NCBI GenBank assembly: GCA_017470935.1
Contig: JAFUXG010000003.1
Coordinates: forward strand, 1-58,089
Direction of reading: 5' to 3'
Length of the DNA: 58,089 nucleotides
Origin: Lachnospiraceae bacterium
GTDB taxonomy: Bacteria; Bacillota; Clostridia; Lachnospirales; Lachnospiraceae
Below, one piece after another: positions 2,963-23,507 of the stretch. Below the pieces are notes generated by a model. It was not told the origin of the DNA. It ran no database searches and was given only the letters and a program-made list of their open reading frames with translations. Positions within the stretch are counted from its first letter, which is position 1. Every line of letters starts with the position of its first letter. Both the position numbers and the translations under genes were made by a program.

Positions 2963-4555
2963 ATGGCAATACCAACCAGTATTCATAATTTACTTTCAGG
3001 AAAAGTAGTTGAATGGGCACGAATTGAATTTAAGACCACATGGGATCCGGAAGCATCCTTGAAAACTATCTGTGCATTTGCTAATGATCTGGATAACTGG
3101 GGCGGAGGATATGTTGTCATAGGCGTTAATGAAAAGGATGGTATTCCGTTGCGCCCATTAGTTGGTGTTCCTTTGGACAAGGTTGATGCATGGCAGAAGA
3201 ACATATTTGAAAAATGCAAGTTGATCAGCCCCGATTATACACCCATTATAGGTATAGAAGAATATGAGAACAAGACATTTATTGTGGTATGGTGTCCCGG
3301 AGGTTACGGAAGACCTTATTCCTCTCCCAAAACAATGGCTAAAGGTAATCGGGAGAAGATAAGCTATATTCGAAAGGGCTCTCTGACGGTAGCACCTAAT
3401 GAAGACGAGCTAAAGGATCTGTATTCTCTTTCAAATAGAACACCTTATGATGACCAGGTGAATCATAAGGCTGAGATAACCGATTTGAATTATACGCTTA
3501 TCAAGTCTTATCTGCATGAGATAGGGAGTGAAATGTATGCTGATGCCGATAACATGGATTTTACAGAGCTATGCCGTAGCATGCATTTGATAAGTGATCT
3601 GCCGGAATATGTGAAACCGAGAAATGTTGCACTGATGTTCTTTAATTCAGAACCGGAGCGGTTCTTCCCCTATGCACAGATAGATGTAGTGCAGTTTCCT
3701 GACGGAGAGGGCGGCGACAAGATTGTGGAGCAGATATTCAAGGGACCGCTGCATGAACAATTGAGAACAGCATTGCGTTATATTAAAAATGTTATAATCA
3801 CGGAAAAGATAATCAAATACCCAGATCGCGCAGAGGCAGACCGTTTCTATAATTATCCCTATGCGGCAATTGAAGAAGCGTTGGCAAATGCAGTATACCA
3901 CAAGGCATACGATGAACGGGAGCCGATAGAGGTACGTGTCACAAGAGACATGATAGAGATAATCTCGCATCCCGGACCGGACAGATCAGTTACAATTGAG
4001 GGTCTGAAGACATTTAAGGTGTATAGCAGAAGATACAGAAACCGTCGTATAGGCGAATTCCTAAAGGATCTTCATCTGACTGAGGGACGAAACACTGGTT
4101 TCAAGAAAATATTAGATGCTTTAAAAGTAAATGGTTCCCCATTGCCGGAATTTGAGACTGATGAAGCACATGATTATTTTGTTTCCCGCTTTTTTGTTAG
4201 AGAGGGATTCTATGATGATATAGATTCTGAGGGAAATGAGAATACATCTGAGAAAAAAGTTGCGATAAAAAGTGGCGAAAAAAAGCGACGGAAAAAAGTA
4301 CTGAAAAAAAGTACTGAAAAAAAAGTACCGAAAAAAAGTACTGAAAAAAAGATTACCGAAAAAACCATGCAGAATTATTATGCTATATTAGATTATATGC
4401 AGTACGGAGAATGGTATAAAACATTAGACTTTATTGAGGTGCTTGATGTTAAGGATTCTCGTATAAGAAAAATTCTTAACGAATTAGAAGCAAAGGGAGA
4501 ATTAATATCTAAAGGATCAACTAAAGGGAAAGTATATCAGAAGGTTGAAAAATAG
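2963..4555 (+). CDS. AlbA_2/Schlafen-type ATP-binding protein with winged-helix tail
   Basis: 530 residues. The N-terminus (about 15-150) is an AlbA_2-type putative nucleic-acid-binding domain (EFKTTWDPEASLKTICAFAN, GGGYVVIGVNEKDG). Residues about 270-410 match the RecG-like HATPase_c_4 region (AIEEALANAVYHKAYDEREP). A Lys-rich linker (about 430-475) with the repeat KKSTEKKVPKKSTEKK leads to a winged-helix-like end (YYAILDYMQYGEW...KILNELEAKGEL). Proteins of this class are often regulators or defence-associated; the substrate is unknown. A strong GGAGG site precedes the ATG. The next gene begins 31 bases downstream, so it is probably the first gene of the island operon. The A-runs coding for the linker are slippage-prone. 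Confidence 0.75.
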   Translation: MAIPTSIHNLLSGKVVEWARIEFKTTWDPEASLKTICAFANDLDNWGGGYVVIGVNEKDGIPLRPLVGVPLDKVDAWQKNIFEKCKLISPDYTPIIGIEEYENKTFIVVWCPGGYGRPYSSPKTMAKGNREKISYIRKGSLTVAPNEDELKDLYSLSNRTPYDDQVNHKAEITDLNYTLIKSYLHEIGSEMYADADNMDFTELCRSMHLISDLPEYVKPRNVALMFFNSEPERFFPYAQIDVVQFPDGEGGDKIVEQIFKGPLHEQLRTALRYIKNVIITEKIIKYPDRAEADRFYNYPYAAIEEALANAVYHKAYDEREPIEVRVTRDMIEIISHPGPDRSVTIEGLKTFKVYSRRYRNRRIGEFLKDLHLTEGRNTGFKKILDALKVNGSPLPEFETDEAHDYFVSRFFVREGFYDDIDSEGNENTSEKKVAIKSGEKKRRKKVLKKSTEKKVPKKSTEKKITEKTMQNYYAILDYMQYGEWYKTLDFIEVLDVKDSRIRKILNELEAKGELISKGSTKGKVYQKVEK

Positions 4556-4586
4556 AAGATAGAAAAAAGATAGTTGAGGAAACATC

Positions 4587-6314
4587 ATGATAGAGAGAAT
4601 TTGCCCGGTACATCTTGTTCCAATGAAAGGAACTAAGTGTACGAAAGAGGGTTGTGATGCAAAGTTAATAACATCTATAACGATATATTGGTGTCCGGAA
4701 TGTAATGTGCCATCTTTCGAGAAGAAATGTGCATGCTGCGGGACAGAGGGAAAGTATATAGCTACTGATATTCGTCCGGTGTTTCCGGAGGAGAAGCTAT
4801 TGCTTGCAATCATTCTGAAAAAAGATACGCCCTTTGCATTTGATAAATGCTCGGTGTGGAATAGCAGCAGCGGCTATTTTATAGATGGGGAGAAACAGAC
4901 CATTTCCATTGAGGAGCTGAACAGATTACCGCTTGATGAGATTCGGAAGATTAAAGACATATATGATGAAAATGTTGATAAGATAGATCGAAGCTATCAT
5001 GACAAGATTGTTCGGAAATTTGTTGAGGTTAATGAAAACAGGTATTATGAGTTGACTGATGAGGCGATTGCATATATACAAAGCTTTGAAGAAAAATATT
5101 CTTTGGAGGATATGTTTGTATCATTTAGCGGGGGCAAGGATTCCACAGTTACTTCTGACCTGGTGACAAGAGCCTTTGCAACTAATAAGGTAATACATAT
5201 ATTTGGTGATACAACGCTGGAGTTTCCAACTACATATGAATATCGTGCAAGATTTGCAAAGGAACACAGGGTGATCCGGGCGAAAAACCATGAGAAGAAT
5301 TTTGAGGAAATGTGTGAGCAGATTGGACCACCTAGCAGAATGATGAGATGGTGTTGTACCGTATTCAAGACGGGAGCAATCACAAAGACCTTATCACAGG
5401 TATTCAAGGATAAGACTAATGTGCTCACATTTTACGGGATAAGGAAGAGCGAGTCCGCAAGCCGTAGTAAATACGAGCGTGAGTCTGAGAGTCCGAAGAT
5501 CACGAAGCAGACGGTGGTTTCACCGATCATTGAGTGGATTGATTTTGATGTGTGGCTTTATATATTGACAACAGGAATAGACTTCAATGAGGCGTATCGT
5601 CTGGGGTATTCCAGAGTGGGATGCTGGTGCTGCCCCAATAATGGAGCATGGTCAGAATTTCTGTCGAAGATACATATGTATGACAAGTATGTTCACTGGC
5701 ATGAGATTCTTGTGAATTTTGCAAAGCGGATTGGGAAGCCGGATGCAGAGGAGTACATTAACAGCGGTAACTGGAAAGCCAGACAGGGTGGACAGGGCTT
5801 GGAGATTGCCAATACTTCAGTTGTGAAGTTTGAACCATGTGCAACAGAGGATAATGCATTTAATTATGAGCTACAGAATGTGATTACCGAAGATCTGTAT
5901 GAGTTATTCAAGCCATTTGGGTATATCAATAAGGACTTGGGTAATTCAAGACTAGGCGAGGTATACATTCTTGATAAGCAGGGCAGGGTAGTTCTTGTTC
6001 TTCAGGGAAGAATAGGAACTAACAGGCTGAAGGTGACAATTAAGAATCCACATATTGCAGGGGCAAAGAATATACAGACAGCGGAGGGCAAGATTAAATG
6101 CCAGCTAACAAAGTACCAGATGTGTCTTGGCTGCAAAGCCTGTATGAGTGTGTGTAAACACAATGCCATAGCAGTTCATGTTCAAGGTGATGACGAGGAT
6201 GGCAAGCTGATATACCGCATTGATGATGATAAATGTGTACGATGCACGGAATGTGTGAATCATTTCAATGCGGGATGTTATATGAGGAAAGTGTTGACGA
6301 TAAAGAGAGGGTAA
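4587..6314 (+). CDS. PAPS-reductase-family protein with zinc ribbon and ferredoxin domain (SspD/DndC-like)
   Basis: 575 residues in three parts. An N-terminal Cys-rich zinc-ribbon-like segment comes first (about 5-52, with WCPEC and CACCG). The adenine-nucleotide alpha-hydrolase/PAPS reductase core has the PP-loop SFSGGKDSTV at about 180 and later WCCTVFKTG, YGIRKSES and GCWCCPNNG. A C-terminal 2x[4Fe-4S] ferredoxin-like region (about 512-570) has CLGCKACMSVCKHNA and CVRCTECVNHFNAGC. In DNA phosphorothioation, DndC/SspD use this fold to activate the DNA backbone for sulfur transfer. The neighbouring DUF4007, large ATPase and cysteine desulfurase support that role. The ferredoxin tail is an addition relative to a plain DndC. 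Sulfate assimilation is less likely in this context. Confidence 0.75.
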   Translation: MIERICPVHLVPMKGTKCTKEGCDAKLITSITIYWCPECNVPSFEKKCACCGTEGKYIATDIRPVFPEEKLLLAIILKKDTPFAFDKCSVWNSSSGYFIDGEKQTISIEELNRLPLDEIRKIKDIYDENVDKIDRSYHDKIVRKFVEVNENRYYELTDEAIAYIQSFEEKYSLEDMFVSFSGGKDSTVTSDLVTRAFATNKVIHIFGDTTLEFPTTYEYRARFAKEHRVIRAKNHEKNFEEMCEQIGPPSRMMRWCCTVFKTGAITKTLSQVFKDKTNVLTFYGIRKSESASRSKYERESESPKITKQTVVSPIIEWIDFDVWLYILTTGIDFNEAYRLGYSRVGCWCCPNNGAWSEFLSKIHMYDKYVHWHEILVNFAKRIGKPDAEEYINSGNWKARQGGQGLEIANTSVVKFEPCATEDNAFNYELQNVITEDLYELFKPFGYINKDLGNSRLGEVYILDKQGRVVLVLQGRIGTNRLKVTIKNPHIAGAKNIQTAEGKIKCQLTKYQMCLGCKACMSVCKHNAIAVHVQGDDEDGKLIYRIDDDKCVRCTECVNHFNAGCYMRKVLTIKRG

Positions 6315-6318
6315 TGTG

Positions 6319-7194
6319 ATGGCTAAAATAAGAATAAGAGGACACGAATCGTTTATGGTTCGTGAGGGGTGGCTAAGTAAAGGTTTAATTTGTGTAGCTG
6401 GCGACAATTTTCTTTTTAGGAATGTTATTCTTGCTGCTGAAAAATTGGAAATTGGTGTTAATATGGTAAAATCAATACGATATTGGATGTTGGCTTTTGG
6501 CTTGATGGAAGAAAGAAAGAGCAATGGAGTTTTTTTGAGCGATTTAGGACTTAAGTTATTGAAGTATGATTGTTATTTAGAAGATTCTTTTTCATTATGG
6601 TTGCTACATTCCAATATTGCTAAAAATAAAGAAAAAGCAACAACATGGTATATATTTTTCAATAAATATATTATTAATGAATTTTCAAAAGAGCAACTTT
6701 TCTTACCATTAAAAAGAGAGTTGATAACTTATACTGAAAACAATGATTTTGCAGACGGATCTCTGAAATCAGATATTGATATATTACTTAATATGTATAG
6801 TAAACAAGGGGATGATGACGATCCGGAAGATAAGAACCGATGTCCGTTCGCAAGACTTGGTATTATCAAAAACGAAGGTGATGCGTATATAAGACAGCAG
6901 CCAAGGTTAAATCGATTCAATGATTATGTGATTTTATATGAACTAAGTTGTGAATTTCAAGATGATGAATCGGGAAATGGGGCAATAAAGGAATCTGTTA
7001 GTATAGACAAAATAGCAGAAACTGCATTTAATATATACAATTTAACCAGAGTTAGTATTAACACAATTTTAGATAGGCTGGATAATGAAGAATATATTAG
7101 AGTTGATAGGACAGCGGGTTTGGATGTTATATATCCGCTTAATATTAAAAAACCATTAGAGGTTATAGAAGAATATTATACAAACCGACATTAA
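6319..7194 (+). CDS. DUF4007 family protein (SspB-like)
   Basis: 291 residues starting MAKIRIRGHESFMVREGWLSKGL, typical of DUF4007. A C-terminal winged-helix-like region (about 225-290) includes AFNIYNLTRVSINTILDRL. From memory, DUF4007 proteins sit in ssp-type phosphorothioation clusters, where SspB is reported as a DNA nickase; I see no obvious nuclease motif here. I chose the ATG at 6319, seven bases after GAGAGGG, over the GTG at 6316. It begins almost directly after the upstream stop, indicating translational coupling. Confidence 0.7.
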   Translation: MAKIRIRGHESFMVREGWLSKGLICVAGDNFLFRNVILAAEKLEIGVNMVKSIRYWMLAFGLMEERKSNGVFLSDLGLKLLKYDCYLEDSFSLWLLHSNIAKNKEKATTWYIFFNKYIINEFSKEQLFLPLKRELITYTENNDFADGSLKSDIDILLNMYSKQGDDDDPEDKNRCPFARLGIIKNEGDAYIRQQPRLNRFNDYVILYELSCEFQDDESGNGAIKESVSIDKIAETAFNIYNLTRVSINTILDRLDNEEYIRVDRTAGLDVIYPLNIKKPLEVIEEYYTNRH

Positions 7195-7261
7195 AAACAA
7201 TAACAGTTATGTTTCCATGTGAAAATTTGAATAATACTATAGAAGTGGGCGGTACAAATCA

Positions 7262-10200
7262 ATGGCACAGTTAAAAGATTATATTAATGTGAATAGCAAT
7301 TTTCAGAATTCAATCAATCTTTATCTTGATTTGAATAATACGCAGAAAATTAATAGTTATATACCAACAAAATCTTCTGTTAATATACTTGATAAGTATT
7401 TGACGGCGGTGTTGGATAATAAGCAGCAGGCAACATTGTTGATTGGACCATATGGAAAAGGTAAATCGCATTTACTGCTTTTGTTGTTGGCGGTGCTGTC
7501 ATTAGAAAGGAATACAGAAAACAAGAAGATTATCAATGCTTTGATAAAACGTATTAAAGCCACAGACAAAGAGGTGTCTGAAAAAGTAAGCGATATATGG
7601 AAGAACAAGGGAAGATTTCTTCCTGTTCTGATCATGAGTACACAGGGAGATTTGAACCAGGCATTTATGATAGGTCTGAATGAAGCATTGAAGAGAGAGG
7701 GACTTACTGAATTATCTCCAGAGACATATTTCACTTATGCTGTCGATAAAATAAATCAATGGGAAAACGAATATCCAGATACATATAAAGCGTACAAAGA
7801 GTTATTGAAGCAACATAATATTACCGGCAAGGATATGATGAAAGGATTGCTTGGTTATGATAATGATTTTTTAGATGTATTTAAGGATATATTCCCTAAT
7901 CTTTCGTCAGGGGAACCATTTAATCCTTTGGTAAATTCTGAAGTGCAACCCATGTTCAAAAATATTGCTGACAAACTACGTGAGGATTACGGATATAGTG
8001 GAATTTATATTATTTTTGATGAGTTCAGCAAGTATATTGAAGGTCAGGATAAAAAGACCTCTGGTAATAATATGAAGATTCTACAAGATGTGTGTGAGCT
8101 TGCCAATAATTCAAAGGAGTCACAGGTGTTTATCACAATGGTGGCTCACAAGAGTATTAAGGAATATGGAAAATATTTATCTGTAGATACAATCAATTCA
8201 TTTACGGGTATAGATGGCAGAATAGATGAGGTATTCTTTGTTACATCTACAAAAAATAATTATGATTTAATTAGAAATGCTATTGAAAAGGATACAGATA
8301 AACTCGCAAAGGATAAGCATGTTATTCCTTATTGGGATTCAGAGATAATAGATCGTCATTATGAGATGAAAGCATTTTCTATGGAACTTGTCAGAGAAGA
8401 CTTTGAGGAAACAGTTGTAAAAGGTTGTTATCCGTTAAGTCCAACAAGTGCGTATCTGTTACTTAATATTAGTGAAAAAGTTGCACAGAATGAACGTACA
8501 CTGTTTACTTTTATTTCAAAGGATGAGCAATACAGCATGGCAAATTATATTAATAATGCTACTGCCCGTTCAAAATGGATAATAGATGCTGATCTAATAT
8601 ATGACTATTTTAAAAATCTTTTTAAGAAAGATGTTATGAATGAGCATATTCATAATGAATGGCTTAATGCGGAATATGTTTTGTCTATTATTAATGACGA
8701 GAATGAAATCAAGATTATTAAGACTTTAGCAATCATTAATATTGTTAATAAACCTGATGAAGTAATTGCAAACGAGAAGTATATTGAGTTGGCTTCTGGT
8801 GTTGATGATGTATCAAAGACATTAGGTAAATTAGAAAAGGATGGCTACATATATAAGAAGGGCTCAACACAATGTTATGTGTTTAAGACCAGAGCGACAT
8901 CTGAACTTAAAACAGAGATTAAGAAACGTAGAGACATAAAAGACGGACGTGTCAATATAAATGGTGTTTTGAATCAGGTTTCTGAAGTGAAATATGTCCT
9001 GCCACGAGAATATAATACTAATTTTTCTATAACAAGGTATTTCCGTTATGAATATATGGATGTAGAAGATTTTCTGGAAATAAATGACCTGAATGTGATT
9101 TTTCAGGATGGCAATTTCTGTGATGGAAAGGTAGTAGCATTGTATTCAATAAAGGACATTGACTGTACCAATGAAATTATAGAAAAACTGCGAAATAATA
9201 ATATTCAAAAATTGGTAGTTATATATGGGAGGGTTGTACTAAATGTTCTTGAACAAATTGAGGAATATGAAGTTGTTCAAGAACTGAAGAATGATATTGC
9301 CTTCTTTAACCAGGATGAAAATAAAGTTTTACAAAAAGAAATTCCTGTGATTGAAGAAGATTTAGAAAAAGAGATAGAAAGTTATCTGCAAGATAATTTT
9401 GGTAGTGGTAATAATAGTATATTTTATATTGATAGAAATGAAGTTATTCATGAAGAAGATTACAAACTCAGCGATATAGCAAATCATCTGTGTCGAGAGA
9501 TATACAGCATTGCATTTGCTGTCAGAAGTGAATTGATCAATAAAGAAGAAGTGAAGACAGGTGTAATTAAAACTGCCAGAAAAAATATCATTGCAAGATT
9601 GCTCAATAAAGAAGACTTTTCAGATGACCTTGATAAAACAAGTGTTGATGCAACATTATTCAGGGCATTGTTTACATCAAATGGAATATTCGATGGTACC
9701 GCCGGAGAATCGGTAATGTACGTTTTGAACGTGTTTAATGATTTCATTGATGGTGCTGCCGATGATAAAAGAGTAATGACAGAGTTGATAGATGAGTTGA
9801 CATCTGCACCCATTGGAATGAGACGGGGGGTTATTCCTGTATATCTCGCATATGTTATAAGTAATCGAAAAGAGGATATAATAGTTTACTTTGGTGATAA
9901 GGAAGTATCTATTACAGCGGACATCATACTTAATATGTGCAGCTATCCGAAGGACTACTCATTATATGTCTCATTGGAAGATGTTGAAAAGGAAAAATAT
10001 ATTAGTGGACTATGTGAATTGTACAAGATAGCAGAACTTGATAATCAGCAGGATTCAAGAATTAGCATAATTGTGTATAACATGCAAAAGTGGTTTAGAG
10101 CACTTCCGCAAGTGACTAAGAATATAAGAAAACAAGATAAGTATTTTGGTGATGAATCACTTGCAAAGGCGTATGCCGGTTATAAGAAATTAATGCAGGA

Positions 10201-10843
10201 TATAGAACCGAACCCGTACGAGATATTGTTCATTGATTTGCCGAAAGTATTTAATACTGATACAGATTATGAAGAGTTACTTAGATTGTTAGAAAAAATG
10301 AAAAGCAAGCTTCAAAAGTATTATGATTATCTCAGAAAAGAAGCTATTAAAGCTACAGTAAAAGTATTCGATACAAAGTCAAAACAAGATTTGAAGCACA
10401 CCTTACTAGAATGGTACAACAAGCAGAGCGATCTTGCAAAAAATGGACTTCATTCAAAGAGAATAACAGATTTTCTTGGCTGTATTACTAGCAACAGATC
10501 TTACAATGATGTGGATGTGATCGAGAAAGTTGCAAAGGCTGTTACTGAAATATATATGGATTCTTGGAATGATACCACATTTACAGGATATTTGGATTCA
10601 TTAAAGTTATTGAAGGAAGAAATAGAAGCAATAAACGACAATACACAGAATACTGGAATGTATGAACTTTTATTTATGGGAAAAAAGGGTGAAATTAAGA
10701 AATATTATGAACCCGTAGAAGAAGGAACTGGAGCCATTCTTAAAAGTATTATTTCAGATGCATTAGAGGATTTTTCTGATATGTCGGTAAATGATAAAAT
10801 TGCAATATTGCTTGAGATGATTGAAGATCAATTGGGGGGATAA
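7262..10843 (+). CDS. Large P-loop ATPase (SspC-like candidate)
   Basis: 1193 residues. Walker A GPYGKGKSH is at about 62-70, and a Walker B-like IYIIFDEFSKYIEG at about 246-259. TMVAHKSIKEYG after it resembles the sensor region of AAA+/STAND-type enzymes. The remainder is long and largely helical with no motif I recognise. Large P-loop ATPases of this sort occur in Ssp (SspC) and in BREX (BrxC/PglY) systems. The position between DUF4007 and a cysteine desulfurase favours the Ssp reading. The ATG follows GGGCGG; a 67-base gap separates it from the DUF4007 gene. Very AT-rich codon use. Confidence 0.65.
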   Translation: MAQLKDYINVNSNFQNSINLYLDLNNTQKINSYIPTKSSVNILDKYLTAVLDNKQQATLLIGPYGKGKSHLLLLLLAVLSLERNTENKKIINALIKRIKATDKEVSEKVSDIWKNKGRFLPVLIMSTQGDLNQAFMIGLNEALKREGLTELSPETYFTYAVDKINQWENEYPDTYKAYKELLKQHNITGKDMMKGLLGYDNDFLDVFKDIFPNLSSGEPFNPLVNSEVQPMFKNIADKLREDYGYSGIYIIFDEFSKYIEGQDKKTSGNNMKILQDVCELANNSKESQVFITMVAHKSIKEYGKYLSVDTINSFTGIDGRIDEVFFVTSTKNNYDLIRNAIEKDTDKLAKDKHVIPYWDSEIIDRHYEMKAFSMELVREDFEETVVKGCYPLSPTSAYLLLNISEKVAQNERTLFTFISKDEQYSMANYINNATARSKWIIDADLIYDYFKNLFKKDVMNEHIHNEWLNAEYVLSIINDENEIKIIKTLAIINIVNKPDEVIANEKYIELASGVDDVSKTLGKLEKDGYIYKKGSTQCYVFKTRATSELKTEIKKRRDIKDGRVNINGVLNQVSEVKYVLPREYNTNFSITRYFRYEYMDVEDFLEINDLNVIFQDGNFCDGKVVALYSIKDIDCTNEIIEKLRNNNIQKLVVIYGRVVLNVLEQIEEYEVVQELKNDIAFFNQDENKVLQKEIPVIEEDLEKEIESYLQDNFGSGNNSIFYIDRNEVIHEEDYKLSDIANHLCREIYSIAFAVRSELINKEEVKTGVIKTARKNIIARLLNKEDFSDDLDKTSVDATLFRALFTSNGIFDGTAGESVMYVLNVFNDFIDGAADDKRVMTELIDELTSAPIGMRRGVIPVYLAYVISNRKEDIIVYFGDKEVSITADIILNMCSYPKDYSLYVSLEDVEKEKYISGLCELYKIAELDNQQDSRISIIVYNMQKWFRALPQVTKNIRKQDKYFGDESLAKAYAGYKKLMQDIEPNPYEILFIDLPKVFNTDTDYEELLRLLEKMKSKLQKYYDYLRKEAIKATVKVFDTKSKQDLKHTLLEWYNKQSDLAKNGLHSKRITDFLGCITSNRSYNDVDVIEKVAKAVTEIYMDSWNDTTFTGYLDSLKLLKEEIEAINDNTQNTGMYELLFMGKKGEIKKYYEPVEEGTGAILKSIISDALEDFSDMSVNDKIAILLEMIEDQLGG

Positions 10844-10847
10844 ATAA

Positions 10848-11984
10848 ATGATCTATCTTGATAATGCTGCTACAACATTTCCTAAACCGAATAGCGTATA
10901 TGATGCATTAGATAAGGCAAATAGAGAATTCGCATTTAATACCGGACGAGGATCTTATAAAGCGGCCAGAGAGGCAACAAAGATCATTGATGAAACCCGA
11001 ATTGCATTGATGAAATTAGTAAATGCTGAAGGGTTGGGAGATGTGGTGTTTGCCCCATCAATAACAATAGCACTTAATCAAATAATTAATGGAATTGATT
11101 TTGCGGCGGGAGATAATGTGTATGTTTCGCCATATGAACATAATGCGGTGGCACGTCCGATTAACTTGATTAAGAAACTAAAAAATGTTAATATAATTGA
11201 AATGCCAGTTGTAGAGGATACACTGGAAATTGATCTTGAAAAATTAAAATATATGTTTACACAACAACCACCTAAATGTGTACTATGTATTCACATAAGT
11301 AATGTGACAGGTTACATTTTGCCAGTAAAAGATATCTTTTCGCTGGCGAAAAAATATGATTCTATTACGGTATTGGACACGGCTCAATCTCTTGGCTTGA
11401 TGAGTGTTGAAATGAACAATTTAAATGCTGACTTTATAGCGTTTGCCGGACATAAGAGTTTATATGGTCCGTTTGGAGTTGGGGGCTTTATTACAACAGG
11501 TAAAGTTAAATTAAATGAATATATTGTTGGGGGAACGGGAAGCGATTCGTTGAATCTGAATATGCCGGAGGGTTATCCATATAAATACGAATCAGCAAGT
11601 CCAAATATTGTAGCTATTGCAGGATTAAATGCAGCAATAAAGGATTTAGACATTGAAACAATATATGATCATGAAAAAGAATTAACAGATTACTTAGTAG
11701 AGAAATTGTCAGAGATCCGGGAAGTGACGATGTATCTGCCGCCAAAGGACAAACATGTTGGAATTGTTTCATTTAATATCAAGGGTTATAGAGCGGAAGA
11801 CGTTGGGATGATATTAGATGAAGATTATGATATAGCTGTTCGGACCGGTTATCATTGTGCTCCGTTTATACATAAGTGGCTGAAAGATGAGGAGTATGTG
11901 GGAACAGTAAGAGTTGGGATTGGTAGGTTTACAAAGAAAGAAGAAATAGACAGTTTAATAAGAGATATCAGAGATGTTATATAG
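10848..11984 (+). CDS. Cysteine desulfurase (SspA/DndA/NifS-like)
   Basis: 378 residues, class V aminotransferase fold, starting MIYLDNAATTFPKP. The PLP lysine is K203 in FAGHKSLYG. The catalytic cysteine is C337 in RTGYHCAPF. The enzyme takes sulfur from L-cysteine as a persulfide and passes it on. Starting four bases after the ATPase stop, it is almost certainly dedicated to the PAPS-reductase-family partner(s) here rather than to housekeeping Fe-S assembly. General cysteine desulfurase activity is secure; the acceptor is inferred. Confidence 0.85.
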   Translation: MIYLDNAATTFPKPNSVYDALDKANREFAFNTGRGSYKAAREATKIIDETRIALMKLVNAEGLGDVVFAPSITIALNQIINGIDFAAGDNVYVSPYEHNAVARPINLIKKLKNVNIIEMPVVEDTLEIDLEKLKYMFTQQPPKCVLCIHISNVTGYILPVKDIFSLAKKYDSITVLDTAQSLGLMSVEMNNLNADFIAFAGHKSLYGPFGVGGFITTGKVKLNEYIVGGTGSDSLNLNMPEGYPYKYESASPNIVAIAGLNAAIKDLDIETIYDHEKELTDYLVEKLSEIREVTMYLPPKDKHVGIVSFNIKGYRAEDVGMILDEDYDIAVRTGYHCAPFIHKWLKDEEYVGTVRVGIGRFTKKEEIDSLIRDIRDVI

Positions 11985-12029
11985 AATCAAAAGTTAACTT
12001 ATACGCGCGATGTTGATAAGGAGAATGGT

Positions 12030-13760
12030 ATGGGAAACTATTTAGATGACATGTATGGTTTTAGTCATACAGAGTTAAAGGATTATTTAGGAAAGAATGT
12101 TGTAAATACACTGATTGAATGGACGCCAAAAGGTGACACAGCATTAACAAAACAGAGACTTATAAAGATGATTGACAGTGTATACGGAACTAACATATTG
12201 AAAAATTCTAGCTTCAGAAAAGATTTGTTGTTACAAATGAAAGAAACACAGATCTATGAGATACGGGATGAATATTTGAAGGGGAATGAGAAAAGAGAAA
12301 CAAATTTACAGAATATTGTTAAGTATATCTCTTCAAAGCCATGGGGAAATAATAATTTATCAAAAAAACTTTTGGAACTATGGGGGGTAACAGAAAATAT
12401 ATTTGAAAAAAAAGAAGATGATTCAGTAGTTGAAAATGATATAAATGCTGAGGAACAATTTTATGAATTATTGGATTATCAATATTATATAAAACAAAGG
12501 GTATTATTTAATTTAAATTCAGATAACTTACAAGAAAGAATGTTGGTACATATGCCCACGGGAACAGGAAAAACAAAAACATCAATGCATATAATAGTTA
12601 ATTATATTAATTTCACATTAAAGAAAAAGGGATTAATTATATGGGTTGCACATACATCAGAACTATTACAACAGGCATATGACACATTTGTTAATGTGTG
12701 GAATCATCTTGGAGATGGCTGTATTAAAGCATATAAATTATGGGATAAACGAATAATTGAAAAAACAGATCAACCTTTAGATGGTATAGTTTTTTGTGGG
12801 TTACAAAAACTGATGTCTATAAGTGAAAATGATTCAAAGTTATTTGAAAGATTAAAATTAGATTGTAGATTATTAGTGTTTGATGAGGCGCATAAGGCTT
12901 CAGCTAATATTACACAGAAAGTTATTGAATCGATTTTACGCATGCCGGAGGGATATGAGAACAGGGCATTGCTAGGACTTACAGCAACTCCTGGGAGAAC
13001 AACGGAAGAATCTTATGATAATAATTTATTGACTAATATGTTTGGTAACAAACTAATTTCTATTGATTCTGATGTTTTGAATCAAATAAATATGGGAAAA
13101 CTTCGCGCATTAAATACTGATGCTGAAAAAAATATAATTAAATATTTTCAGAAGCGAAGAATATTAGCAAAAATGAATTCTGAGCGACTTGACTACAAAA
13201 AAGAATTTTCAGAACATGATCTAAAGATATTAAGTTCTGAATTAAAAGATTTAGGGTTTAATGATAAAGAGTACACAGAAAAACAATTGCAGGTATTAGC
13301 GCAAAATAAAAACAGAAATTTTGCTATCATGAAAAAGATTAGGCAGTTGTATTCAGAAGGTGTTCCGACGATAGTATTTGCATGTTCTGTAGAACATGCA
13401 CAAATGTTATCAGCTATGTTGACACTTGAAGAAATACCAAATAGTTTAGTTGTTGGATCTATGAATCCTATTGATAGAAAGAAAGCAATTAATGATTTCA
13501 AGGATAGGGATAATGATGTGAATATTATTATAAACTATGAGGTTCTTACAACGGGCTTTGATTCTAAGAACATTCGTTGCGTATTTATAACTCGACCAAC
13601 TAAGTCAGTGGTTCTTTATAGTCAAATGTTAGGAAGAGGATTGAGAGGACCGCTAATGGGAGGCAATGAAGAATGTTTGTTGGTTGATATAGAAGATAAT
13701 TTGAAATCGTTTGATAATGAAACAGCATTTTCACATTTTAATGATTATTGGATAAGATAG
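12030..13760 (+). CDS. SF2 DEAD/DEAH-box helicase of the restriction type
   Basis: 576 residues. Motif I MPTGTGKTKT (about 174-183), motif II VFDEAHKA (about 284), motif III-like GLTATPGR, motif V TTGFDSKNIR (about 507) and motif VI QMLGRGLRGP (about 533) are all present, so the ATPase core looks intact. The 140-residue N-terminal region is specific to this protein. Similar translocases power type I/III restriction and SspFGH/Dpt-type modules. It is followed 12 bases later by a GHKL ATPase gene and then a PLD-type nuclease gene, which suggests a three-subunit DNA-targeting complex (inference). RBS AAGGAGA. Confidence 0.75.
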   Translation: MGNYLDDMYGFSHTELKDYLGKNVVNTLIEWTPKGDTALTKQRLIKMIDSVYGTNILKNSSFRKDLLLQMKETQIYEIRDEYLKGNEKRETNLQNIVKYISSKPWGNNNLSKKLLELWGVTENIFEKKEDDSVVENDINAEEQFYELLDYQYYIKQRVLFNLNSDNLQERMLVHMPTGTGKTKTSMHIIVNYINFTLKKKGLIIWVAHTSELLQQAYDTFVNVWNHLGDGCIKAYKLWDKRIIEKTDQPLDGIVFCGLQKLMSISENDSKLFERLKLDCRLLVFDEAHKASANITQKVIESILRMPEGYENRALLGLTATPGRTTEESYDNNLLTNMFGNKLISIDSDVLNQINMGKLRALNTDAEKNIIKYFQKRRILAKMNSERLDYKKEFSEHDLKILSSELKDLGFNDKEYTEKQLQVLAQNKNRNFAIMKKIRQLYSEGVPTIVFACSVEHAQMLSAMLTLEEIPNSLVVGSMNPIDRKKAINDFKDRDNDVNIIINYEVLTTGFDSKNIRCVFITRPTKSVVLYSQMLGRGLRGPLMGGNEECLLVDIEDNLKSFDNETAFSHFNDYWIR

Positions 13761-13772
13761 GAGGATATACAA

Positions 13773-15584
13773 ATGGGAAAAAGTATTGTTGATATTCAGA
13801 ATATGGGAGATGCACTTAGGAATACGGGATATAAAAATATTGAAAGTGCAGTATCGGAGATAATTGATAATTCTATTGAAGCAGAGGCAAAGGATGTATT
13901 TATTATTATTAGCGAGGGCGTTGATCGAAAATCAGGCTGGAAGGTTGTTAATGAAATCGGATTTCTTGATAACGGAATAGGCATGGATTTCGATACATTA
14001 GGTGCGTGTCTGGGAATAGGTGCAACTACAAGACAAGCTCGCAAAGGAATGGGAAGATTTGGTGTTGGTTTACCACAAGCATCTTTGTATGCTTGCCCTA
14101 ATGTAGTTGTTTATTCATGGCAAAACGGTATAGAAAATTGCAAAAAAGTATTTTTAGATATTAATATGGTAAAGGATGGAACACAGACAGAATTAGATGA
14201 TCCACAACAGTGTGCTGTGCCAGATAAATATTTAGGCTATATTACATATAAAACTCAAGAGAAGGAGTATGATTTTTCTCATTCAGGTACATTAGTTGTT
14301 TGGAAAAAATGTGATAGAATTCAACCCAAAACAAGTGGAGCATTAATACCAAGATTAGAATTTGCACTCGGTCAAAAGTTCAGATATTTTATAAGCAGAG
14401 GTATTTCTAATTTAAGAATCATAAATGACAATAATCAGGATAATTCTTTCGATATCTGTCCTAATGATCCGTTATTTCTCATGGATAATAATTATGTTTT
14501 AGGAGATCCTGAATCCCCGGGAAAACTAATAAAAACAAAGAATTTTAATAAATATGAACCTGTGTTTGAACCATATACAGGAGATGGTGCTAGTGACGGA
14601 ACCGAAATAGTTCCTGTAAAATATTATGATAAAGATGGTAATATTGCAGAATCTACAGTTACTATTCGGTTTTCAATTGTAAAACCTAAATTTTATGATG
14701 AAACCGCATTTCCAAAGGGGAAAAACCCTGGAACATCACAATTTGGCAAGTATGCTGCTAAACTAGAAGGTATATCTGTTGTGCGCGCCAATCGGGAAAT
14801 TGATTTTAGAAAATTTGATTTTTATGACAATTTAAATGAACCACAGCATAGATGGTGGGGTTGTGAAATAGAATTTGGTCCCGAGCTTGATGAGGTTTTT
14901 GGTGTTGCAAATAATAAACAGTACGTAGAATTAAAGAAAATAGAAGAGGAAGATATAGACTATAATGAAGAAATACAGCCAATTTGGTTAAAGCTTGATG
15001 AAATAATCAGACCAACCATAAAGGCTATGTATAATAAAAATGAGGAAACGAGAAAAAATACCCGTTCATTTGATGATACAATATCTGCATCAACAGATAT
15101 TATTAATGTAGTTGAATCTGATGATGAAAATGATATAGATGAGAGAAATGAAGATGGCGAGATTGCTGCTACAGAAGAAGCACCGACATTAGAAGAAATA
15201 GTAGAAGCAGGAAGACGGGAATTAGAAAGTCAAGGATATGAGGATACAACAGATGAGCAAGCAGTTCAATTTATTAATAATAGAGTAAATTTTGTGTATA
15301 TGGATTTAGGTGAACGATCACCGGCGTTTGATTACGGATTTGTTTTTTCGATGACTAAAATTACAATAAATACTAGTCATAGATTTTATACAAACTTTTT
15401 GAGCAAAGTCTATGAAAACGATGAAGCAAAAGTGACTTTTGAATTGTTGTTGGCATCATTAATACAATCCATTAGAAAATTAGATGTATATCAAAAAGTT
15501 GAAAATGATAGATTAGTAACTTTGTGGTATGAAAAGCTTAACAAATTTATACAAGAACAATTTGAACCTAGAGATGTAAAGTAG
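13773..15584 (+). CDS. GHKL (HSP90/MORC-like) ATPase, first copy
   Basis: 603 residues. The Bergerat ATP-binding fold is clear at the N-terminus: N-box SEIIDNSIEA (about 28-37), G1 DNGIGM (about 66-71), and G2 GMGRFGVGLPQ (about 91-101). The middle has a transducer-like domain, and a strongly acidic stretch lies around 445-475. The C-terminus is helical. MORC- and MutL-like ATPases of this kind act as ATP-gated DNA clamps in several defence systems. The gene overlaps no neighbour but has only 12- and 8-base gaps, so it is co-translated with the helicase and PLD genes. RBS AGGAGGATATACAA. Confidence 0.75.
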   Translation: MGKSIVDIQNMGDALRNTGYKNIESAVSEIIDNSIEAEAKDVFIIISEGVDRKSGWKVVNEIGFLDNGIGMDFDTLGACLGIGATTRQARKGMGRFGVGLPQASLYACPNVVVYSWQNGIENCKKVFLDINMVKDGTQTELDDPQQCAVPDKYLGYITYKTQEKEYDFSHSGTLVVWKKCDRIQPKTSGALIPRLEFALGQKFRYFISRGISNLRIINDNNQDNSFDICPNDPLFLMDNNYVLGDPESPGKLIKTKNFNKYEPVFEPYTGDGASDGTEIVPVKYYDKDGNIAESTVTIRFSIVKPKFYDETAFPKGKNPGTSQFGKYAAKLEGISVVRANREIDFRKFDFYDNLNEPQHRWWGCEIEFGPELDEVFGVANNKQYVELKKIEEEDIDYNEEIQPIWLKLDEIIRPTIKAMYNKNEETRKNTRSFDDTISASTDIINVVESDDENDIDERNEDGEIAATEEAPTLEEIVEAGRRELESQGYEDTTDEQAVQFINNRVNFVYMDLGERSPAFDYGFVFSMTKITINTSHRFYTNFLSKVYENDEAKVTFELLLASLIQSIRKLDVYQKVENDRLVTLWYEKLNKFIQEQFEPRDVK

Positions 15585-15592
15585 GTGATGGT

Positions 15593-16495
15593 ATGTCCAT
15601 CTTAATGGCAAATGAAATAATAAATACACTTGCACAAGAATTAAAATGTGCTGATAAATCCATACAAATAGTTACAGCTTATTGTAAACTAAAAACAATA
15701 AAGTATCTAAATTCCAATATTTCATGTTCAGTTACGGATAAGAGGATAATGTTACGTTTTCAACTGCAGGACATTATTAAAGGCAGTACTGATTTTGGTG
15801 TGCTTGAATATTGTATTGTAAATGGGTGGAATGTATTTATTAGATTTGATTTGCATGCAAAAACATACATTGTTGATAATAAAAGGGGAATTATTGGAAG
15901 TGCAAATGCCACAAATCGGGGATTGGGCTTGGGCGGAAATGGAAATCTTGAAATTGCTGTGTTTTCTGACATTGAAGAGAAGGATTTGGTAAAGATTGAA
16001 TCATTATATGATGATGCAATTTTCGTTGATGAAAGTATATTTAATGAACTTAGAAATAATTATCAAAATACAAATCTAGAAAATGTTAGTGGGAAAACAG
16101 TAAAATGGAATGAAAAAATACAAGCATTATTTAAACCAAAAATCAAATCACTTTTCTCATATGAGTTACCGGATGAGATTGATATCAAATCGGAGAATCC
16201 ATTAGGTTATCTTACAGAAGGTAATGTTATAACCGAAGACGAATCTCGCGAGTTATTTAGATGGAGTAATGCATACCTTTGGTTGTTAGATACCCTCGAG
16301 CAAAATGATGGCTGTCTGTATTTTGGTGAATTGTCAGAAAAATTACATAATGCTCTTGTGTCGGACCCAAAGCCGTACAGAAAAGATGTAAAAATATTGT
16401 TGGCAAATTTATTGAAACTTGTTGATAGGTTGAATATGGATGAGGTTGTCATTGACAGACCAAATTATTCGCAGAGGGTAAGAGTAAAAATATAA
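15593..16495 (+). CDS. Phospholipase D-like (HKD) nuclease candidate
   Basis: 300 residues with a single HKD-type motif HAKTYIVDNKRGIIGSANAT at about 88-107 (H-x-K followed by G-S-x-N). Single-HKD proteins dimerise to build the active site and include endonucleases such as BfiI and Nuc. The C-terminal half (about 200-300) looks like a helical partner-binding domain. It follows a helicase and a GHKL ATPase and is the only visible nuclease candidate of that trio. Nuclease activity is inferred from motif and context. Confidence 0.7.
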   Translation: MSILMANEIINTLAQELKCADKSIQIVTAYCKLKTIKYLNSNISCSVTDKRIMLRFQLQDIIKGSTDFGVLEYCIVNGWNVFIRFDLHAKTYIVDNKRGIIGSANATNRGLGLGGNGNLEIAVFSDIEEKDLVKIESLYDDAIFVDESIFNELRNNYQNTNLENVSGKTVKWNEKIQALFKPKIKSLFSYELPDEIDIKSENPLGYLTEGNVITEDESRELFRWSNAYLWLLDTLEQNDGCLYFGELSEKLHNALVSDPKPYRKDVKILLANLLKLVDRLNMDEVVIDRPNYSQRVRVKI

Positions 16496-16604
16496 ATGAA
16501 TTGTAATAAAAAAATTAATGATATAATTATGTTTGTATGATATTATGTACTTTGAAGAATTAGGAAAGGAAACAATATTTATTTAAATATTGAGATTAAA
16601 AAAT
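16496..16604 (+). promoter_or_regulatory. Probable promoter of the second three-gene module
   Basis: A very AT-rich 109-base gap with TATAAT at about 16521-16526 and AGGAAAGGA at 16562-16570. This is the longest break inside the island after 7.2 kb, so the last three genes may have their own promoter. No good -35 element can be assigned. Confidence 0.35.
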
Positions 16605-17606
16605 ATGAATCTTGATGATATTTTAGATCAAGCACCTCAAAATAGTTTGATTGGAAACTCTTTGATAATTACATATGACAAGATACGAAAATATGACAAA
16701 ATATTATGTTCTGTTAGTGGTGGAAGTGATAGTGATATTTTGGTTGATTTATGCCAAAAATATGATGACATTGATAAAATTACATATGCTTTTTTTGACA
16801 CAGGATTGGAATTTGCAGCAACGAAAGAACACTTAGATTACTTAGAGCAACGATATGGTATAACAATACAGAGAATACGGGCGAACAAATCAGTTCCATT
16901 ATGTTGTAAAACATATGGTCAACCATTTATTTCCAAACAGGTTAGTGAATGGATTGAAAGATTACAAAAGCACAATTTTCAATGGGAAGATGAACCGTTG
17001 GATATTTTAGAAGAACGTTATCCAAACTGTAGAGCAGCGTTAAGATGGTGGTGTAATGATTTTGCAAGCAAATCCGGTGGAGAAGAGAGTAGTTTTAATA
17101 TTGCATATAATCAATATTTAAAAGAATTTTTGGTTGAATATCCTCCTCAATTTCATATTTCTAATAAATGTTGTCATTATGCAAAGAAATTGGTGGCAAA
17201 AAAATATAAAGAAAATGGTGGATTTGATTTAAATATTTATGGTGTACGAAAATCTGAGGGTGGAGTTAGGAGAAGTGCTTATAAAACTTGCTTTTCTTCA
17301 AATGACGAAGAATGTGATGAATACAGACCTATTTTTTGGTATTTGGCAGACACTAAAAATTTATATTATAAGCATTATAATATACAAAATAGCAGATGTT
17401 ATTGCGAATATGGGTTAAAACGAACAGGTTGTGCTGGGTGTCCATTTGCAAGAAATTTTGAAGAGGAATTGGAAGCAATGAGAAGGTTCGAACCGAAGTT
17501 GTATGTTGCAGTAAATAATATTTTTGCAGATTCCTATGCATATACGCGAAAATATAGGGATTTTATTCGAAAAAAAAGGAATAATAATAACGAAGGAGAT
17601 GAATAA
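16605..17606 (+). CDS. Second PAPS-reductase/DndC-family protein
   Basis: 333 residues. PP-loop SVSGGSDSDI at about 36-45, then FDTGLEFAAT, ALRWWCNDF and YGVRKSEGG, all typical of the DndC/PAPS reductase family. A C-terminal Cys cluster (CYCEYGL, then GCAGCPFARNFEEE, about 264-285) could hold an Fe-S cluster. It differs clearly from the 4587-6314 protein: no zinc ribbon and no ferredoxin domain. No second cysteine desulfurase accompanies it, so it may share the one at 10848. The start is uncertain: TTG 16590 and ATG 16605 are in frame and neither has a good SD; I give the ATG. Next gene starts 3 bases after the stop. Confidence 0.75.
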   Translation: MNLDDILDQAPQNSLIGNSLIITYDKIRKYDKILCSVSGGSDSDILVDLCQKYDDIDKITYAFFDTGLEFAATKEHLDYLEQRYGITIQRIRANKSVPLCCKTYGQPFISKQVSEWIERLQKHNFQWEDEPLDILEERYPNCRAALRWWCNDFASKSGGEESSFNIAYNQYLKEFLVEYPPQFHISNKCCHYAKKLVAKKYKENGGFDLNIYGVRKSEGGVRRSAYKTCFSSNDEECDEYRPIFWYLADTKNLYYKHYNIQNSRCYCEYGLKRTGCAGCPFARNFEEELEAMRRFEPKLYVAVNNIFADSYAYTRKYRDFIRKKRNNNNEGDE

Positions 17607-17608
17607 AA

Positions 17609-18931
17609 ATGGATAATAATATCGTGAAAGCAAGCCCTACAAAAGAGTTTTTTGTTAATATGTTGGTAAGAGACATAATGTTAAAACAGGCAATTATCGA
17701 ATTGATTGATAACAGTATAGATGGGGCAAGAAGCATACGGAATAATAATGAATACTCTGGACTTAATATAAATGTGTCCTTTAACAAATTATCGTTTAAG
17801 ATTGAGGATAATTGTGGTGGGATTCCATTAGATATTGCTGCAAATTATGCTTTTAGATTTGGAAGACCAAAGGGGTTTGATAAAAAAGATGTGGAATCTA
17901 CAGGCATTTTTGGCATTGGGATGAAAAGAGCTTTATTTAAGATTGGGAAAAAGTTTTCTATTCATTCTATTACTAACTCTACAGAATTTCAGCTAGATGT
18001 TGATGTTGACGAATGGTTAAAACAAGATGATAACGATTGGGATTTTCGATTTACAAATTTTGAAAACAATATGTATAATAATGATAATGAAGTAGGAACT
18101 AGCATTATTATTACTCAATTAAATAATGAAATAGCTGGAGAATTAGATAATTCAGAATTTGAAAAAGAGGTTATTGAACATATTCAAAGAAGAGTAGGCT
18201 TAGATATATCATATGGTATTAATATTGTTGTTAACGGAAAGAAGCTGGTAGGTAATAATATATCGTTAATTAATAATGATCAAATAAAACCAATTAAAGA
18301 AGAATATACAGATAAGGATATTAAGGTCACAATTATATGTGGAATTGCGTCTCGTGAAGGTAAAAATTATCCACCAGAACAAGCAGGTTGGTATATATAT
18401 TGTAATGGTAGGTTAGTTGTAGCTGCTGATAAAAGTTCATTAACAACATGGAAAGACATGGAAAATAAAAGTAGTGGAGTGATTTTTCATAATAATTATG
18501 CTGGCTTTAGAGGAATTGTTTATTTTAACTCTAATTATCCCGCTGAATTACCTTGGAATACAACTAAGACCGGTTTAGATGAAACCTCATTGGTTTATTT
18601 ACGTGCAAGAGAAAAAATGAAAGAGTATTTTATTATTGTTAAAAATATTATTGATGAAATTAGAAATAATACGAATGAAAATGATGATGGTATAGAGGAA
18701 ACCATTGCACATATGCCTGGAACAGAATTGACACTAAAAAATATAGGTAAAATAAAAGATAATAGAATTATTACCATTACTAATGTCTCTTTATCTACCG
18801 TTCCTAAAGTCACTATTAGTTATAAAAAAACTAAGAAGGAAGCTGATGAAATTAAAGAGCAATTAAATGTAAAGACATACAAAGAAGTTGGTGAGAAAAC
18901 CTTTGAATACTATAAAGATGCGGAGTGTTAA
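17609..18931 (+). CDS. GHKL (HSP90/MORC-like) ATPase, second copy
   Basis: 440 residues. N-box AIIELIDNSIDGA (about 30-42), G1 IEDNCGGI (about 68-75), G2 GIFGIGMKRALF (about 100-111). Conserved YCNGRLVVAAD and ELPWNTTKTGLD in the second domain are typical of MORC-like bacterial ATPases. It is shorter than the copy at 13773 and not a recent duplicate: beyond the ATP-binding motifs I see little shared sequence. The last 7 bases reach past the in-frame GTG of the next gene, so the two are translationally coupled. The substrate is unknown. Confidence 0.75.
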   Translation: MDNNIVKASPTKEFFVNMLVRDIMLKQAIIELIDNSIDGARSIRNNNEYSGLNINVSFNKLSFKIEDNCGGIPLDIAANYAFRFGRPKGFDKKDVESTGIFGIGMKRALFKIGKKFSIHSITNSTEFQLDVDVDEWLKQDDNDWDFRFTNFENNMYNNDNEVGTSIIITQLNNEIAGELDNSEFEKEVIEHIQRRVGLDISYGINIVVNGKKLVGNNISLINNDQIKPIKEEYTDKDIKVTIICGIASREGKNYPPEQAGWYIYCNGRLVVAADKSSLTTWKDMENKSSGVIFHNNYAGFRGIVYFNSNYPAELPWNTTKTGLDETSLVYLRAREKMKEYFIIVKNIIDEIRNNTNENDDGIEETIAHMPGTELTLKNIGKIKDNRIITITNVSLSTVPKVTISYKKTKKEADEIKEQLNVKTYKEVGEKTFEYYKDAEC

Positions 18932-18933
18932 AT

Positions 18934-19893
18934 ATGCCAGGAAGTGACCAAAAAATTAATTATCAAATACGTCCAGCAAAATCAATAGAAAGAAAAATGC
19001 TTTGTGATTTGATTCGTGAAATACAGTTATTGCGATCGAACGGTGAAATGCGATATATTGGATTAGGTGCTAAGTACTTTACAGATTTTCTTTTATTGCA
19101 TAATGAATTTGGAATTACTGATATGATCAGTATAGAGGCACAAAAAGAAAGACAAATGAGATATGAGTTTAATAAACCGCTCAAGTATATTCAAATGTGG
19201 TATGGTTCGACAAATGAGGTTCTTCCACAGCTCGATAATTTTGACGATAAAATGAATCTTATTTGGTTAGATTACGATAGTATGTTTAATGAAACGATGC
19301 TAAAAGATGTTGAAACGATATGCAAAAAATTATGTGTTGGAAGCATGTTTTTTTTATCATGTAACTGCTCTTTTAGTGGTACACAAACTGATAAAATGAA
19401 AGCATTCAAAGAAAATGTTGGAGAATATTTTGATGAAAGCACAGAAAAAAAACAGTATTCGGCTAATAATATACCTTATACTATTAAATCATTAATAGAC
19501 AAACAAATTAAAAATAGTATTGAAATGAGAAAAAGAATTAATAATGATAATTTAGAATATCTTCAGTTGTTGTTTCTGAAATATAAAGATGGTGCTCAAA
19601 TGCTTACTATTGGTGGTGTTATAGTGGATGAAAAGTTGAGGAATAATATTGAGAACAGTAGGTTGTTTAATAAATATGATTTTATTTCTATAAATAATAA
19701 CTTATATTCTATAGATATTCCGCAATTAACTAATAAGGAGATACAGTTAATATTAAAGAATCTTCCGATTTCTGAGGAAGAATATATAATTAATCAAGAT
19801 AAGTTTTTTGGTATAGAATATGATGAGATAGCGAAATTTCAAAAAATATACCGATATTATCCATTTTATTCAGAAGGTGTATATAGAACGTAA
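18934..19893 (+). CDS. Rossmann-like protein, possibly a methyltransferase, in the second module
   Basis: 319 residues with an uncertain fold. RPAKSIERKMLCDLIREI is followed by MRYIGLGAKYFTDF, which resembles a class I methyltransferase glycine loop, then DMISIEAQ (acidic strand-2 position) and LIWLDYDSMFN (motif IV-like DY). That order fits an O-methyltransferase-like fold, but no specific family is recognised. I start at the ATG after GGAGTGTTAAAT; a GTG at 18925 is also possible. Being the third gene of a tight trio, it should be functionally linked to the PAPS-reductase-family and GHKL proteins. Confidence 0.5.
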   Translation: MPGSDQKINYQIRPAKSIERKMLCDLIREIQLLRSNGEMRYIGLGAKYFTDFLLLHNEFGITDMISIEAQKERQMRYEFNKPLKYIQMWYGSTNEVLPQLDNFDDKMNLIWLDYDSMFNETMLKDVETICKKLCVGSMFFLSCNCSFSGTQTDKMKAFKENVGEYFDESTEKKQYSANNIPYTIKSLIDKQIKNSIEMRKRINNDNLEYLQLLFLKYKDGAQMLTIGGVIVDEKLRNNIENSRLFNKYDFISINNNLYSIDIPQLTNKEIQLILKNLPISEEEYIINQDKFFGIEYDEIAKFQKIYRYYPFYSEGVYRT

Positions 19894-21805: not shown

Positions 21806-21870
21806 AATACTCAAGTAAGTCTGGATAAAGGAATTGTTTGGCTACGAAAATAAAGGGAGGTTAACATACT

Positions 21871-23488: not shown

Positions 23489-23507
23489 TGCATAAAGGTT
23501 GTGAATT

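Follow-up and report, generated by a model that had tools for sequence, protein, structure and literature searches.

The window analysed here, 58,089 nucleotides of a Lachnospiraceae genome (G000, 78% complete), carries a row of eleven genes which, judged from their sequences, form two separable modules and a leading AlbA_2 gene with no sign of belonging to either. Module A (4587-16495) has a complete Ssp-type phosphorothioation core (SspD, SspB, SspC and SspA); after it come a helicase, a MORC-like GHKL ATPase and a PLD nuclease, a trio that is a conserved and widespread Ssp partner distinct from SspE, SspFGH and Pbe. Module B (16590-19893) resembles a module that normally carries a cytosine-5 methylase, with a PAPS-reductase-like enzyme now apparently holding the methylase's place. 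We consider it probable that module A is a phosphorothioation-based restriction system with a further kind of arm, and that module B is an independent methylase-type module in which a sulfur-type enzyme replaced the original modification enzyme. The original prediction had treated the eleven genes as one composite island; the comparisons below divide it into two modules instead.

As that prediction had it, the genes are co-directional, tightly spaced and AT-rich. All eleven open reading frames (ORFs) were verified at their positions and lengths, on the + strand and closely packed, and G+C per kb is about 0.27-0.43 from 3 to 20 kb, whereas most 1-kb blocks between 23 and 55 kb have 0.40-0.48, with exceptions near 29, 34, 44, 51 and 54 kb. 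The predicted gene identities stood for the domains scanned, namely AlbA_2, PAPS reductase with 4Fe-4S domain, DUF4007, class-V aminotransferase, SF2 helicase, two GHKL ATPases, PLD protein and a second PAPS-reductase-type protein, and the last protein, described only as Rossmann-like, could be specified as Methyltransf_35. Signature motifs were found in every island enzyme inspected. The features are as follows (profile matches with E-values).

2963..4555, + strand: AlbA_2 and HATPase_c_4 protein (Pfam-type domain scan)
4587..6314, + strand: SspD/BrxP-type PAPS reductase with C-terminal 4Fe-4S domain (PF01507 2e-36, Fer4_7; BrxP 1e-79; SspD 1e-14; SGGKDS at residue 181)
6316..7194, + strand: SspB, DUF4007 (PF13182 2e-74; SspB 5e-50)
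7262..10843, + strand: SspC-type ATPase, 1193 amino acids (SspC 2e-103; GPYGKGKS at residue 62)
10848..11984, + strand: SspA-type cysteine desulfurase (PF00266 7e-76; SspA 8e-40; DndA 1e-39; HKS and GYHC motifs)
12030..13760, + strand: SF2 helicase of the trio (ResIII 1e-23; Helicase_C 9e-14; GTGKT, DEAH, QMLGR)
13773..15584, + strand: MORC-like GHKL ATPase of the trio (HATPase_c_3 2e-18; N, G1 and G2 boxes)
15593..16495, + strand: PLD-family nuclease of the trio with one HxK motif (PLDc_2 5e-9; HAK at 88; GSAN at 102)
16590..17606, + strand: g8, PAPS-reductase-like PP-loop enzyme of module B (PF01507 6e-11; SGGSDSD)
17609..18931, + strand: g9, second GHKL ATPase (GHKL2) of module B (HATPase_c_3 3e-13; phrog_20521 7e-78)
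18925..19893, + strand: g10, Methyltransf_35 protein of module B (PF20553 9e-96; phrog_19983 8e-32)

Module A pairs an Ssp core with an unfamiliar arm

Homologues of sspA, sspB, sspC and sspD occur all together in the island when scanned with the PADLOC library, which bears out the Ssp-like modification core that had been proposed; the proteins singled out for a profile check (4587, 6319 and 7262) matched SspD, SspB and SspC, respectively. The helicase, GHKL ATPase and PLD protein had been described as impossible to map one-to-one to SspF, SspG and SspH. This held, as the SspE, SspF, SspG and SspH profiles matched none of ten island proteins, while the same library recovered SspF, SspG and SspH in control loci L052 and L066, SspE in L065 (E 5e-53), and PbeA and PbeC in full beside Ssp cores in L053 and L054. 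The one partial likeness is that of the helicase to PbeA (E 3e-19), which covers profile positions 236-616 of 672, the helicase part alone; PbeC had no match among the island proteins. An assignment of the trio to SspFGH, SspE or Pbe was accordingly rejected, with a positive control for each profile search. That the island is an ordinary SspABCD-SspE, SspABCD-SspFGH or Ssp plus Pbe system with diverged effectors would agree with its core and with the weak PbeA match, but the controls leave this very improbable, and because the trio and an SspE-like gene adjoin one core in L065, the two are different things. This Hymenobacter plasmid locus (L065:2134-15068) has a single Ssp core. The Pbe arm is usually described with Dnd, and Ssp cores with adjoining PbeA and PbeC homologues were seen at L053:1080-14587 and L054:2299-18243. 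When a profile of the first GHKL ATPase was compared with PDB sequences, nine of nine matches were MORC ATPases, over about 100 residues only.

The module shares parts with several described systems. SspABCD-SspE is a known Ssp system with the same modification core, and the trio has no SspE match. SspABCD-SspFGH of Vibrio anguillarum FF-93 likewise combines an Ssp core with an adjoining three-gene ATP-dependent partner, which differs by the Walker A motif of SspF and the FtsK-like end of SspH, where the island has an SF2 helicase, a GHKL ATPase and a PLD protein; in the part of that source available, SspFGH damages DNA without the mark (PMC8092258). PbeABCD has the combination of a PLD/HKD nuclease and an SF2 helicase, fused in PbeA according to the available part of PMC10853773, whereas the island encodes the two separately and has a GHKL ATPase in the position of the Pbe ABC ATPase. 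BREX type 4, as far as the available text of PMC12839542 goes, shares a BrxP-like ferredoxin-bearing PAPS reductase, DUF4007, a BrxC/SspC-type ATPase and a cysteine desulfurase, but PglZ and BrxL were absent among 20 proteins of the island region scanned with Pfam, a scan that skipped the ORF at 25806-26576 and ended at 28 kb. Finally, the accessible portion of PMC2292703 describes MORC and paraMORC restriction-modification operons in which MORC-type GHKL ATPases, SF2 helicases and nucleases, as in module A, belong to methylase-based systems, and in which GHKL ATPases accompany cytosine methylases, as in relatives of module B; neither phosphorothioation genes nor a PAPS-reductase-like modifier is mentioned in that portion. 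We found no description of the trio adjoining Ssp in the literature within reach, which excluded subscription papers and most preprints.

The trio adjoins Ssp cores in many phyla

The first GHKL ATPase was compared by tblastn with 72,556 plasmid records, which gave 45 records, and twelve of these were inspected (L061-L072). Helicase, GHKL and PLD genes adjoin genes for DUF4007 and a large SspC-like ATPase in seven of the twelve, from Treponema (L061), Mesorhizobium (L062), Trichormus (L064), Hymenobacter (L065), Roseobacter (L067), Planktothrix (L068) and Pannonibacter (L072). A PAPS reductase is annotated in six of the seven (not annotated in L061) and a desulfurase in five (not within the stretch of L065 or L068). 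Gene orders vary, genes lie partly on opposite strands, and in L068 one gene intervenes between GHKL and PLD. Two further plasmid loci carry a variant in which the helicase lacks the usual motifs and another protein takes the PLD place; one adjoins ssp genes (L063) and the other SspF, SspG and SspH (L066). This variant, with a PLD-place protein that has no Pfam match, stands directly upstream of SspF-SspG-SspH at L066:5705-18286 and L138:8418-21610.

A profile scan of a genome collection of 84,980 species gave 356 GHKL relatives, of which the best 80 were kept, representing 79 distinct loci. The search profile consisted of ten sequences, nine of them adjoining ssp core genes; one of the loci recovered (L085) belongs to the same species as L061. 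At least one of sspB, sspC and sspD lies within about 10 kb of the GHKL gene at 71 of the 79 loci, a proportion that is no base rate because the profile was mostly Ssp-linked and only the best 80 of 356 were kept; at least two are present at 68 loci and all three at 57. By gene, sspD was found at 62 loci, sspB at 64, sspC at 70, the desulfurase at 61, the helicase at 75 and PLD at 56. The linked loci differ in gene order and strand. Judged by their record titles, the 79 loci span phyla that include Bacillota, Spirochaetota, Bacteroidota, Actinomycetota, Cyanobacteriota, Pseudomonadota, Acidobacteriota and Myxococcota. Motif boxes are largely kept at related loci (GHKL 69-75 of 75, PLD 51 of 55, helicase Walker A 62 of 64 and DEAH 54 of 64). 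The suggestion that helicase, GHKL and PLD form the restriction arm of the core thus gains support from their linkage. Relatives of g8, g9 and g10 were found at none of the 79 loci.

Two further observations concern these loci. DndB/DGQHR-like genes adjoin the trio at Ssp loci L077, L078, L093, L099, L101, L120 and L129. In Nostoc-type loci (L110, L114, L118, L122 and L133) the ssp genes, GHKL and desulfurase are kept without a PLD match, and the helicase or SspC is often shortened, as if decaying.

Core and arm evolve as two semi-independent blocks

Pairwise-identity matrices were compared for the window and 38 loci that have all seven genes at full length (39 rows), and for the 26 rows nearest the window. 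Correlations across the 39 rows were 0.86-0.97 within the core, 0.97 between helicase and GHKL, and 0.69-0.82 between these blocks; in the 26 rows the corresponding values were 0.94-0.96, 0.96 and 0.32-0.48. Upon resampling, the difference of cross minus within ranged from -0.77 to -0.37 (26 rows) and from -0.28 to -0.13 (39 rows). Individual loci illustrate this pattern, with L082 sharing 85% identity with the window in SspD, 66% in SspC and 51% in GHKL, and L073 sharing 44% in SspC and 66% in GHKL. The core and the helicase-GHKL pair therefore look like two semi-independently evolving blocks, and since correlations within blocks exceed those between them, the arm was apparently exchanged in part between cores. 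Such partial exchange would be expected if the arm senses something common to several cores. The idea that PLD tracks the core more closely than the helicase-GHKL pair was considered and dropped, as the means of 0.69 and 0.56 (26 rows) carry a resampling interval of -0.09 to 0.36 that spans zero, and in the 39 rows the two means are equal (0.81 and 0.83).

Some findings weigh against a dedicated link to Ssp. Besides the way in which the 79 loci were selected, three of the twelve plasmid loci (L069-L071) show no ssp cluster in the listed stretch, and 23 of the 79 genomic loci, many of them cyanobacterial, have no PLD match. These plasmid loci, eight genomic loci without sspB, sspC or sspD, the partial co-inheritance of core and helicase-GHKL pair (r about 0.4, 26 rows) and the MORC-type GHKL, helicase and nuclease operons that exist with methylases, as far as the available part of PMC2292703 describes them, would all suit a stand-alone MORC-type restriction system that is blind to phosphorothioate and merely shares defence islands with Ssp. 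We judge this unlikely, given the linkage at 71 loci across gene orders and strands and a correlation of core and pair distances that exceeds all 500 permutations. In addition, six of the eight exceptions are partly explained, by contigs of only 5-7 kb (L128, L144, L150), by a GHKL gene 2.7 kb from the contig start (L142), by SspFGH relatives in place of sspB/C/D (L138), or by the presence of a desulfurase, together with a helicase (L116); the other two are L137 and L145.

Module B has a PAPS-reductase-like enzyme in the methylase place

The original prediction saw an extra module that may share the single desulfurase; it missed that the module is of a methylase type, with the methylase's place apparently taken by a PAPS-reductase-like enzyme. 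Methyltransf_35 occurs in 4 of 398 genomes of a phylum sample, the window's own among them, and a GHKL2 relative directly adjoins it in all four. In L161 and L162 this pair is preceded by a gene for a cytosine-5 DNA methylase. In L163 a methylase-profile match follows the pair and Methyltransf_35 is broken, and the pair of Pseudomonas phage PfAC20 (Methyltransf_35 Pfam 8e-86) has a cytosine methylase after it. In a DISARM cluster of Microvirga (L155:4728-20987), an MmeI-type methylase gene precedes the pair and drmA lies on its other side.

Viral contigs scanned with the GHKL2 sequence alone gave no match; an alignment of GHKL2 used as query gave 72 loci, which with seven further loci made a set of 79 after two duplicates were dropped, or 49 clusters at 90% identity. 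Within 3 kb of GHKL2, a cytosine methylase is present in 45 of the 49 clusters, Methyltransf_35 in 44 and a PAPS-type enzyme in one, and these counts were unchanged with a Methyltransf_35 profile built without PfAC20. The four clusters lacking a methylase are L038, which has the g8-type enzyme, L154, which has an IS66 transposase inside, L155 with its adjoining MmeI-type gene, and L207, where GHKL lies at the contig edge. The five clusters lacking Methyltransf_35 carry a longer GHKL of 573-586 amino acids; this arrangement of methylase and longer GHKL was seen in L225, L226, L227, L229 and L233. Of 32 representatives of methylase-GHKL modules, 5 also carry a Vsr nuclease. Methylase-GHKL-Methyltransf_35 modules are common in prophage-type contigs (L166-L237), with one cluster at 50% identity holding 33 of the 79 loci, and two members of that cluster show phage structural-type neighbours. 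PADLOC, NCBIfam and PHROGs gave no function for either the GHKL or the Methyltransf_35 protein of L178.

The order g8-GHKL2-Methyltransf_35 is found in the window, in L038 (G195) and in L350 (G816, of the same genus as G195), and in all three genomes g8 immediately precedes the GHKL gene, the spot that the methylase occupies in L161, L162 and other loci. No methylase profile matched the window at E 1e-3. In G816, a 973-residue protein adjoining the g8-type module (L350:253-3171) scores E 3e-227 against the profile of a type IV methyl-directed restriction enzyme. As G195 carries module B without a DUF4007 match, module B needs no Ssp core, and g8-g10, absent from the 79 arm-bearing loci, were rejected as part of the Ssp system. 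The same findings count against the claim that the extra module belongs with Ssp or necessarily shares its desulfurase; sharing of SspA between modules A and B is possible, not required. They also make it hard to credit that g8 is a second SspD feeding the same core and widening its specificity; two PAPS-reductase-family proteins with one desulfurase gene among the eleven would fit such a role, but g8 relatives come mostly from viral contigs. We found no PAPS-reductase-like enzyme described in a methylase place, again within the literature accessible to us.

Origin and structure of the module B proteins

A tree of GHKL2 was built from 36 rows chosen from 81 and rooted at the midpoint. The GHKL proteins of the window, L038 and L350 form one clade (100/100), nested in a twelve-row group of eight methylase-linked rows, L154 and the three g8-linked rows (98/88). 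The g8 proteins of the same three loci also form one clade, with relatives mostly from viral contigs (51 rows, bootstrap not settled), in a sample that leans to phages by design. For L038 against L350, dN/dS was 0.08 for g8, 0.05 for g9 and 0.08 for g10, which indicates purifying selection on all three. Phage-type relatives of g8 were examined at 87 loci, which represent 86 distinct places and mostly have 6-kb flanks; none contains GHKL or Methyltransf_35, and 19 contain a methylase-profile match.

The model of g8 has a mean pLDDT of 93.9, and among PDB folds it comes closest to APS/PAPS reductases and next to TtuA/NcsA thiolases, at a TM-score to the query that does not exceed 0.46 in the 50 rows listed; a PDB sequence search with g8 gave no match. 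Cysteines C194, C195, C234, C281 and C284 are invariant in 44 sequences. The g10 model (mean pLDDT 88.2) best matches the tRNA methyltransferase Trm1, followed by other S-adenosylmethionine (SAM) methyltransferases.

Several points speak against a swap of methylase for g8. The nesting depends on the midpoint root, on account of which the direction from methylase to g8 is likely, short of demonstrated; a long branch (1.27) leads to the g8-linked clade, and the window's GHKL2 has an unusual letter make-up. The g8-type module is present in only three genomes, two of one genus. Furthermore, cytosine methylases are encoded elsewhere in G000 (one place) and G195 (several pieces on three contigs), so that one of them may act in trans. 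These methylases, the PHROG category of the g8 family (auxiliary metabolic gene) and the APS/PAPS reductase folds would be accommodated if g8 modifies no DNA, either as a sulfur-metabolism passenger or beside a cytosine methylase that serves module B from elsewhere. We take this seriously and still think it less probable than its opposite, in view of the position of g8 directly before the GHKL gene in three of three genomes, in the exact methylase place of L161 and L162, and of the purifying selection on it.

Proposed mechanism

The seven genes of module A are linked and their motifs intact; by analogy with described systems, the trio would be the dedicated restriction arm of the Ssp core. If published Ssp biochemistry applies, SspA would draw sulfur from cysteine and SspD hand it on, and SspB with SspC would place phosphorothioates at a short site in host DNA. 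The helicase may track along DNA and the GHKL ATPase may act as an ATP-driven clamp or loop-former, as suggested by SspFGH and by MORC-type proteins, proposed in the available part of PMC2292703 to loop DNA between recognition and cleavage sites. The PLD protein would then cut DNA without the mark, the mark presumably blocking the cut.

In module B, g8 occupies the methylase place in three genomes, as one clade under purifying selection. The simplest reading is that g8 makes the mark of this module, and as it holds the methylase's place, it probably modifies DNA by sulfur chemistry; we infer the functional swap, this chemistry and the roles of GHKL2 and Methyltransf_35. Only tentatively do we go further, to a restriction-modification-like system in which one phage-type PP-loop enzyme marks DNA with sulfur, at the base or the backbone, instead of with 5-methylcytosine, a mark to be read by the GHKL-Methyltransf_35 pair.

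Flanks of the two modules

The AlbA_2 gene probably lies outside both modules. Its relatives were found at none of the 79 GHKL-related loci of module A, a weak test because only 31 of the 57 loci with a + strand sspD show at least 1 kb upstream. Downstream of the island, the window encodes RhuM, a pRiA4 ORF3-like protein, KptA RNA 2'-phosphotransferase, SfsA and a RlaP nucleotidyltransferase (20768-25809). When the island ends were sought through an empty site in relatives, the matches to the MecA side and the SfsA side in the same-genus genome G1011 fell on different contigs, each about 1.8 kb or less from the contig start. A promoter scan showed no excess over shuffled sequences (105 versus 98.6, standard deviation 9.9).

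Implications for Ssp systems and phage PAPS-reductase-like proteins

In a survey of 2,678 sspBCD clusters, 2,211 had neither sspFGH nor sspE adjoining, and further restriction partners were raised as a possibility, according to the available part of PMC8092258. With its wide distribution, the trio offers a concrete candidate for some of those further sspBCD partners. Module B bears on the role of many phage PAPS-reductase-like proteins, since recruitment of a phage-type enzyme into the methylase place predicts DNA modification by that enzyme. If this is true, module B would represent a new kind of DNA modification made by a single enzyme, and the island would provide one genome with two distinct sulfur marks, each with a GHKL ATPase of its own to police it.

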